A stretch of 64,000 nt of DNA from the NCBI GenBank assembly GCA_964019415.1, contig OZ025881.1, positions 3,304,265 to 3,368,264 of the forward strand, given 5' to 3'. Made by a program: the position numbers and the translations under genes. Below are positions 23,801 to 26,800 of the stretch, piece by piece (the stretch's first letter is position 1; every line of letters begins with the position of its first letter). The stretch is from Ianthella basta. Its lineage: Eukaryota > Porifera > Demospongiae > Verongiida > Ianthellidae. The notes beneath the pieces were generated by a model that was given only the letters and a program-made list of their open reading frames with translations, searched no databases and had not been told where the DNA came from.

Positions 23801-26800
23801 ATACTCATAAAAAGCTTAACGAAAGACACTTCTGCGACATACAGCTTCAATTGTCATGAAAGAACATTGCAAAATGGCTGTGCTCAACGCTCCCTAGTTT
23901 GCTAGGCTCAAAATCATCTTTCTTCATATTTTGTCATCTATCCAAAGAATGCAAAGTCTTTGTAGAACACGTTTAAGTAATAGTATTGTAGTAGAAAGCT
24001 TACCTAACTATTCACCTGCAATACAACTGAGGTCGAATGACCCGTTGGCCTATGAGAGACAATTGAATCATGGCATTACCACTTAGGGTAGCCTTTTTAG
24101 CCAGCACACTCCTCCTCCAGGCACAAACATGTACATCTTCATTCATAATGTTTTGTAGATCAGAAAGCACCAGCAAAGCATTTTGACAGTTTGGTAGGGG
24201 TGTTTTCAATGGATGGCTTGCTGATCTGGGGACTTGAAACTCTTGCAACCCCAACAGTCTATGGTATCGTGATGTATCTTTCAGGCCATCCTGCAGTGAT
24301 GCATTATGCAGCAAACTCGACTTGTGTAGCTCCGAATACAAGTACATGTACATACCTATAGTGGTGATTGTAGTGTGCAAGGTAAAGACAGTACTCTTGC
24401 ATGCTTGGAATGGAACTGTATTAATATGAATCGTCTTAAGCATTGACTTGTCGGCGATGATTCAAAGTGGCTCAGGCAAGGACAAGGACAAGGCAGGCTG
24501 GAGGCAGAGCAATGCCAACTGATACTTAGTCATGATTCAATACAGTAGGTATCTTTAGTGTTTTGAATGCAATTGAAGCTATAGTGGTTACCTGAAGGCT
24601 TGCATGTGTGACAAGCCTTTGTGTGAAGGCATGTCATCTGTAAATGACAATGTATGCTACAGAGGGGTGCCAGAGCTGCATAGTAAAGTAGTAGAATGGT
24701 TTAGTTAGCTACTAACTCACTTCAATTTCAGAAGTTGGTTCATGATCTCTGCGCAACATTGTAGCTATGTATTAGTTCAACTAGTTGGCAGTCACATCAG
24801 TATTGCACTATTCACTTTGTTCCACACTATGTATGCCATTAACTCCCTTAAACACCAGACAAGTAGAATATGGTGAATTCTGTACAAGGATGTAAGCATT
24901 GCAAGTGTGCATGTGTTTCCTATAGTAATTTTCCCCAACTACTACTTTGGATACATGACTGGTTAGTATGTAGCTACACCAGAAGCCACATTGTTTCCAT
25001 AGGACATGTCTCACATGTGTAAGGTTAGCCCTGCATGGTATAGATAGCCTATTATGACAGTTTTTAACCCTTCTCGGTAATAGTACTGCTTTTCAGATTT
25101 GGTTGTATTGCAACATATGAACAAGCACCACCATCCCTACATCCCTACTTAGACAGCACTACCATGCTGTTTGATATTCATGTGGCATTTTACACAATTA
25201 AACCTGTAAACCAGCCACCTGTAGGTAGATGAGTTATACACATAATCAGGTGGATGCATTGCAGTCTGTCAGTGGTAAACTGCCATGTTGTGGTTCTTAT
25301 GTTATATGGACTGGAGAAGCTGGCTGGTTATAATTAAATGTCTAGCAGTTTAATATGCAAGAAAGTTGACCTGGAGGCCAGCCTCTCCTACATATGTAGC
25401 GTTGCTTCTGCTAAAGTATGCTAGTTATATAGCTGAATTGACCATTAAATGTGCAGAGACCGTATTGATTACTAGCTCCCAAGCATTTTAATCATGTTTA
25501 GGCCTCATTCATCCACTATCTTCAATTGCCCTTGGTTTGTGCTGACTGATTTCCTCTTCAAAATTACCATTGCTTTCTCTGGCAGCACAAGTTGTAGGTA
25601 TTGCCTGCACATGTGGGCTATGTCTGCCACTTTGGAAATTTGTTTGCATGCATAATATGAACTGTGTGGTTAATTGCAATCTTTCACGGTTACCATTGGC
25701 TACACATGTGACTGTGCATGACATGCATGTGATTCGAAGGTTGAATTCTGTGATAATGCGGCACTTGCTGTTCCAATCTGCACCAATCATAAGGAAATTG
25801 TTTCAACCAGTAGCTAGACACCAACGCATGGTTTGATGAAGGATACACTGCCTTATTTTGATGCTTGATTTGAACGTTTATTTTTCTGATGCTTGACTCG
25901 AACGTTTAATGATGTTTCAGCAGGAAGTCACAGGAATATCACATGACAATGGCTGCTCGGGAAGCCTGCAAACCCAGTTGTCACTGAATCGTCATATTAC
26001 GGGTTTGCAAGAAAAAGGTACGGCAAAATTGAATACCCATGTGCAAGCCAATATCAATTTATCTAACTTTTACAGGTGAGCTTTTGCAATGTGATGTCAG
26101 AAGTTACAAGGTGTGTAACATGTTTAGGTCAATTTGATCTTCATAGTAGGCGAATACGTAGTTTGTGGGCAATACGTAGCAGATTATTCAACAACTGAAT
26201 GTAGGACGTTTCGGCCCGAAGGCCTTCGTCAGCTACAAAACTGAGAATGTACAGTGTGAGACTGGTTTATATAGCTATGGGTAACTGTGTGTGACCAATC
26301 AAAGTCTAGGATTATGTGTACATGTGTTTAGCCAATCAGAAACATAGTTATGTGTACAGGGGGTGTGGCCAATAAAAAAGAAAACAAACTACGTATTCGC
26401 CTACATTGAACAACGTAGCAATGAGCCTCTTCTTCTACATTATTCATCTTCATACTTTAATTTGCTCATTCCTTGTACTGGATCAACTGGATCAGAGTGA
26501 GGCATGTAGCAAATGAAAAGCGAAAATCCTCCATAAGTCCATGAATGTCCGCAGTTATAACTCTTTCTGACATTGAGATACAACAACGATTGTTACATCA
26601 AAGCTGCTGCAGTGTGTTAATTTTGGATACTGTTCACACTTTCCAACCTCATAACACACTGTGTTGAATGGGACTCTTATTTGCTAACCCAATCAATTTC
26701 TAGCCTTAAACAAATATTTTGATTACTGCTCTAGAAAGTGCCTTCGATAGTCATCACCTTGTGAACTTTCTCATGAAAACTGACTGGAATGATGAGTACT

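Follow-up and report, generated by a model that had tools for sequence, protein, structure and literature searches.

Does the hammerhead-ribozyme-like motif at this locus belong to a DNA transposon or to a retroelement? The window, the 64,000-nucleotide stretch of Ianthella basta DNA analysed here, contains a short element with inverted ends, which the preliminary description read as a DNA-transposon-like MITE carrying a hammerhead, with no retroelement as its host. Minimal hammerheads have been described in Penelope-like elements (PLEs) (PMC7229834, PMC6155905, PMC11167929), and a minimal type I form that has no helix III is said to be conserved there (PMC7761336, PMC6155905). The premise that minimal stem III hammerheads are established in Penelope-like elements is sound. 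Thousands of minimal type I hammerheads are reported to be dispersed in animal genomes (PMC7761336); for a single coral the count of type I motifs exceeds 6,000, with up to 1,508 of them canonical and the rest similar to the minimal kind of PLEs and Terminons (PMC7229834). Among the papers listed for hammerheads with MITEs, or with Penelope and miniature inverted repeats, no title describes a hammerhead in a MITE. On the sequence comparisons set out below, the motif is very probably a minimal hammerhead of the PLE kind, and its host a Penelope-type pseudo-LTR (pLTR), solo or short and non-autonomous.

Letters of the hammerhead motif

The minimal type I hammerhead-type motif lies on the minus strand at 26200..26237 and is identified from its sequence, a genome pattern search and covariation. 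Its pieces were correctly described and placed from the start: stem I TGTAG (26237-26233) is followed by the core CTGACGA (26232-26226), an unpaired extra A (26225) between CTGACGA and stem II, stem II itself as GGCC/TTCG/GGCC (26224-26213), GAAAC (26212-26208), GTC (26207-26205) with a predicted cut 3' of C26205, and CTACA (26204-26200), the complementary partner of stem I. The core CUGANGA...GAAA...UH before the cut is present as CTGACGA, GAAAC and GTC, and a full stem III is absent from the sequence. The window contains a single instance of the loose core CTGANGA...GAAACG, where 100 shuffled versions hold 0.09 on average. The stem I of this copy is private, with TTTTGTAGCTGACGAAGG having one exact genome match, the window copy itself; elsewhere stem I is mostly TTTTGTACGCAG / CTGCA or one-letter variants, and both versions pair.

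The Rfam hammerhead models, named in the preliminary description as a check, do not recognise the motif. Nothing was found in the whole window at gathering thresholds, and a search of the element with E up to 10 returned no hammerhead, only ssnA at chance level (E 0.91). The result does not discriminate, because the same models also miss the motifs of clear PLEs (loci L082, L049, L040 and L036).

Genome-wide abundance and the extra A

The genome searched comprises 209 Mb in 96 contigs. The pattern CTGANGAAG...CGAAACGTC, in its exact form CTGANGAAGN{8,38}CGAAACGTC, has 1,495 matches (723 + 772), against 2 for its reversed control. When a base other than A was required at the extra position and the closing pair was left freer, 42 matches were obtained against 95 in that pattern's own control, several of the 42 being plainly degenerate or nested. 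The extra A is therefore near-constant in the motif of this genome. In the textbook hammerhead core, A9 runs straight into stem II, whereas nearly all matches here have one extra A in between. The observation that the extra A departs from the textbook core stands, although the departure is the rule genome-wide and not a peculiarity of the window copy. It does not exclude a PLE-type hammerhead, because the PLE motif illustrated in PMC11167929 can also be read as having an extra base.

Two further observations concern the distribution of such motifs. A hammerhead-like core that has no extra A, CTGATGAGCCCTTATCAGGGCGAAACAGCC, is found at L003:3007-3044 (+), with a similar copy in L010; the best Rfam match of the L003 copy is Hammerhead_HH9 (17.2 bits, E 7, far under the cut-off), and the core could be the motif of another repeat or due to chance. 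Motif copies also stand frequently head-to-head (-/+), at spacings from tens to thousands of bases (judged by eye, among the matches listed on contig C1 and at L035/L036, L040/L041 and L046), as expected for the inverted pLTRs of PLE insertions.

Covariation and folding

About ten motif families have differing stems I and II that are mostly still complementary. For stem II, pairing was counted at positions 2-5, outside base pair 1, which the search pattern fixed; the cells counted are sequences and not independent events. Over 32 distinct strings, drawn from the matches listed on contig C1 and from further motif copies, 85.9% of cells are paired, whereas 2,000 shuffles average 60.3% and peak at 73.4%. 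The set excludes every inexact match and also five exact, distinct strings, of which two hold nested motifs, one has a lengthened 5' arm, one carries GAA in duplicate and one is a T variant of the window family. For ten hand-picked family representatives the value is 97.5%, against 64.5% with the 3' arms re-dealt (reached by 0 of 5,000 shuffles). When the 5' arm is shifted by a single base in one direction or the other, pairing in these ten families falls to 52.5% and 47.5%, a drop that places the extra A outside the stem II helix. The letters of stem I played no part in the search pattern, and 72.7% of its cells are paired against 44.8% when shuffled (0 of 5,000 shuffles reach this), over 11 hand-picked rows that omit the window's own stem I, include three variants of one stem II type and are unpaired in two cases. 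There is partial overlap among loci L031-L060, which are not independent of one another. Across families N7 is the free position of the hammerhead core and the remaining core letters are kept. Covariation among genomic copies, the second check named at the outset, is thus present between families in both stems. Since the stems differ between families yet stay complementary, a hammerhead-type fold of the motif is well supported.

One rival is a plain extended hairpin without ribozyme activity, built from stem I, GANG/CGUC and stem II and maintained for its structure in DNA or RNA. It corresponds to the minimum-energy fold of the window monomer, a long hairpin in which GACG is also paired with CGUC (-16.3 kcal/mol). 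Folding of the monomer or dimer is uninformative on the hammerhead fold because the energy model favours extended hairpins. The letters themselves point away from a plain hairpin: N7 is A in 7, C in 5 and T in 20 of the 32 strings (by eye) while CGTC is constant, an A at N7 breaks the GANG/CGUC helix and is found in the commonest family among the matches listed, and GAA and GAAA, both unpaired, are conserved. A variable N7 beside an unchanged CGTC is compatible with a hammerhead and not with a helix, although this test is one-sided because the search pattern itself fixed CGTC. A plain hairpin is a very unlikely account of the motif.

Anatomy and ends of the element

The insertion that carries the hammerhead-type motif measures 297 bp (26442-26146) and lies between 9-bp direct repeats; the label of a 259-bp MITE fits neither this length nor the ends, which are not of the DNA-transposon type. 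Along the minus strand, the 5' target-site duplication TATGAAGAT (9 bp, 26446..26454, a direct repeat of the 3' copy) is followed by a GAA filler on the left side of the insertion (26443-26445) and by an inverted 3' tail (TAATGTAGAAGAAGAGGCTCATTGCTACGTTGTTCAATGTAGGCGAATACGTAGTTTG, 26385..26442), which is the reverse complement of the tail of sibling copies and includes the left 'TIR'. The promoter-like part of the pLTR (26295..26384) has three ATTGG boxes (inverted CCAAT; 26369-26373, 26332-26336 and 26295-26299), and a TATA box, TATATAAA, is found at 26266..26273, separated by 33 nt from the ribozyme's first core base. Beyond the ribozyme lie the short form of the 3' tail (CAAACTACGTATTCGCCTAC, 26146..26165, recognised from the sequence and from sibling copies), which is the right 'TIR', and the 3' target-site duplication TATGAAGAT (26137..26145), a direct repeat of the 5' copy. 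The 9-bp repeat falls below its own shuffle maximum of 11 in an automatic scan (50 shuffles), and it carries weight because it is located 0 and 3 nt from the two element ends.

Sibling copies share this layout. The three ATTGG boxes occur in all eight copies compared at length (the window copy and seven siblings), and the TATA box TATATAAA in six of them, with TATATAGA in L004 and TATATTAA in L009. Downstream of the motif, 22 of the 30 fetched loci (the other eight having no sufficiently exact motif) share one common sequence that ends near one of two points: TTCGCCTA(C) precedes the first, and CTTCTTCTAC(ATTA) the second, which lies about 35-39 nt farther on; among these 22, L011 and L013 are neighbouring copies and not the matched ones. 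Against these two alternative 3' ends stand many differing 5' ends, and the longer copies extend into a C-rich tract and then an open coding stretch. Direct repeats of 8 bp or more were detected by automatic scan in 15 of 29 siblings (L010, the thirtieth locus, had no anchor), most of them 9-13 bp long; the other 14 yielded none of that minimum length. Thirteen of the 15 exceed the best of 50 shuffles each, and by eye an inverted tail or pLTR end adjoins the 5' repeat in 10 of the 15, a set in which L024 matches the element itself, its repeat being internal to the element, and in which part of the 16-bp repeat of L018 may belong to the element. Target duplications of 11 bp (CCATTGAGTAT) and 10 bp (TTATGTGAGG) are seen at L061 and L062. 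The 8-bp duplication of L006/L064, AAGAGGAA at L064, was missed in the scan through its low-complexity filter.

The L064 copy (minus strand, 6973-8044 from the start of that locus) is a short PLE copy with an 8-bp duplication inside host sequence that looks, by eye, like a LINE frame, which makes it a possible natural empty-site comparison.

These ends bear directly on the proposal of a DNA-transposon-derived MITE that acquired a hammerhead. The perfect 21-bp inverted ends of the window copy are real, lying within an inverted repeat of 27 nt at 93%, and short dispersed copies exist in dozens (at least 47 matches in a DNA search that scored 40 of 446 candidates), both as a MITE would have them. 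However, the left 'TIR' reads as the full tail in reverse complement and the right one corresponds to the tail in its short form, so that the 'TIR' is a copied tail; the copies differ in their ends, with two 3' ends and many 5' ends; the direct repeats at the ends vary in length, where a MITE would have fixed termini and a duplication of fixed length; and sibling copies extend upstream into the start of a PLE reading frame. Variable ends, inverted tails and end repeats taken together are features of retro-insertion and not of a cut-and-paste MITE. The MITE reading, and with it the claim of a DNA-transposon-like host with no retroelement, was rejected on the variable ends and duplications and must be regarded as extremely improbable.

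Relationship to Penelope-like coding sequences

The Penelope-type pLTR reading is supported by the coding sequences near the motifs. At locus L082 two motifs of the same type, 2,647 bp apart, flank an open frame that measures 844 codons from stop to stop and passes through the first of the two ribozymes. Over the matched parts it shares 97.5% identity with the frame of L055 and 43.6% with that of L049. In frames adjoining other motif families, Pfam detects RVT_1 at L049 (E 4e-7) and GIY-YIG at L055 (E 1e-5) and, sub-threshold, at L040 (E 0.016). PLE coding is present within 1.5 kb in 25 of the first 30 motif loci; it reaches beyond the N-terminal codons in 11 of the 25, and the N-terminal codons to which the hits in the other 14 are confined would be part of pLTR and tail.

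In the short family to which the window copy belongs, the coding stretch (MSLFFYIIDRLEQ...) matches the start of the L082 frame (MNLYSIIQRSERA...) in a single BLASTP comparison (E 2e-5, 29 aa, 45% identity). A DNA alignment around the ribozyme (score 37 against a shuffled maximum of 27 in 200 shuffles) consists mostly of the motif itself and adds little. Since its coding start matches that of L082, this family has the appearance of a non-autonomous PLE with an internal deletion, of which the window copy seems to retain little beyond the pLTR. Beside the 30 fetched loci (40 of 446 candidates scored) no RT/EN frame with exactly the window-family pLTR was seen; PLE coding of another kind lies near four of the 30.

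Capture of a host gene was considered for the 85-codon stretch upstream of the sibling pLTR. Pfam returns CCDC47 for it at E 0.0014 (0.00028 and 0.00095 for trimmed forms), all below the curated cut-off. Two exons of the CCDC47 host gene were matched, and the 4.5 kb read downstream of the second gave no convincing match. Host-gene capture was rejected, the stretch matching the start of the PLE frame.

Other remnants of mobile elements are present in the window. A separate decayed Penelope-like frame with an RT end and a GIY-YIG region lies at 53436-54141 (-); tblastn with PLE ORFs matches it at E 9e-37, and the frame by itself has no Pfam hit. About 680 nt downstream of this match, a decayed motif of the same shape, CAGTTGATAAAGGTCC-TCGC-GGCTGAAATGTCCTG (52721..52757, minus strand), occupies by eye the pLTR position of that remnant. 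Broken tblastn pieces at 17409-18117 (-) match the N-terminal half of a PLE frame. Two frames at 1493-3063 (-) with Pfam hits to DUF3504, QRICH1 and phage-integrase-like domains form a tyrosine-recombinase element, presumably Crypton-like. Non-LTR retrotransposon-like stretches are found at 12719-14336 (+), with RVT_1 at 12719-13525, and at 19574-21401 (-), with RVT_1 at 19574-20767, the neighbouring frames in both being assigned by eye.

Comparison with known systems

The closest published relatives are the minimal type I hammerheads of PLEs (Cervera & De la Pena 2014; Lunse et al. 2017, via PMC7761336, PMC7229834, PMC6155905). As excerpted there, they share the type I layout with the motif described here, likewise have a helix III devoid of non-conserved letters, are placed in pLTRs, number thousands per animal genome and have been proposed to cleave as dimers; the window copy, in contrast to them, is a solo pLTR. 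PLE hammerheads were earlier reported to self-cleave at 3-25 mM Mg2+ (PMC11167929). For the Poseidon element of Anolis carolinensis (PAc), the excerpted account describes protein-dependent cleavage and two internal RT start sites that give tails, and it reports no RNA-seq ends at the cleavage site (PMC11167929). As in the Ianthella elements, its hammerhead lies at the ORF start with GAAACGUC on its 3' side, and the printed RNA can be read as having a TATA-like stretch upstream and one unpaired U between CUGAGGA and stem II. PAc differs in this extra base, in the sequence of stem II, in being autonomous and in cleaving, in that assay, only with added protein.

The Penelope families of the rotifer Adineta vaga have the same pseudo-LTR anatomy as the window element, with pLTRs of about 181-218 bp that contain a TATA box, a 31-bp tail, an inverted pLTR, duplications of 8-10 bp and solo pLTRs (PMC3846280). 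The excerpts of that account make no mention of a ribozyme, and, unlike in Adineta vaga, one short non-autonomous family has dozens of copies here.

Animal non-LTR retrozymes (PMC7229834) offer another comparison and a rival reading, namely that the element is a canonical retrozyme, with short tandem repeats, full type I hammerheads and circular RNA. Like the window element they are described as short and non-autonomous with type I hammerheads, PLE mobilisation has been suggested for them, and the element is of their size order (170-400 nt; PMC7229834); L026 moreover has two direct copies 542 bp apart. Published retrozymes nevertheless carry canonical hammerheads in tandem repeats and give circular RNAs (PMC7229834), whereas the motif here lacks a full stem III, the element contains a PLE ORF start and promoter-like boxes, its inverted tails and target duplications are those of PLEs, and longer tandem arrays are absent from the fetched loci. 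Partial tandems are described for Penelope too (PMC3846280). A canonical retrozyme is accordingly a very unlikely reading.

Proposed mechanism and implications

A solo or short non-autonomous Penelope-type pLTR could have arisen as follows. Transcription starting downstream of the TATA box would place the ribozyme close to the 5' terminus of the transcript. As stem III is cut down to A-U and C-G and is loopless (ACGU, self-complementary), cleavage after GUC would require two paired copies or the help of a protein. An autonomous PLE may then copy the RNA of the element in trans via target-primed reverse transcription, which, by beginning at either of two sites in the tail, would produce the two alternative 3' ends. 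Insertion by this route would leave a duplication of about 8-13 bp, often with an inverted tail at the 5' end. As a more tentative suggestion, which we hold to be possible and on balance doubtful, the near-constant extra A may mark a distinct core variant missed by Rfam with folding or protein needs of its own, joined to an internally deleted PLE of about 0.5 kb (promoter, ribozyme, tail and ORF start) that is amplified in trans.

The claimed oddity of this locus, a ribozyme within a DNA-transposon MITE, is removed by these results, and a solo pseudo-LTR of Penelope can evidently mimic a MITE. Most likely the window element is ordinary for genomes rich in Penelope elements. The genome also holds a large covarying set of PLE ribozymes that the Rfam models miss, and this set could seed a proper covariance model.
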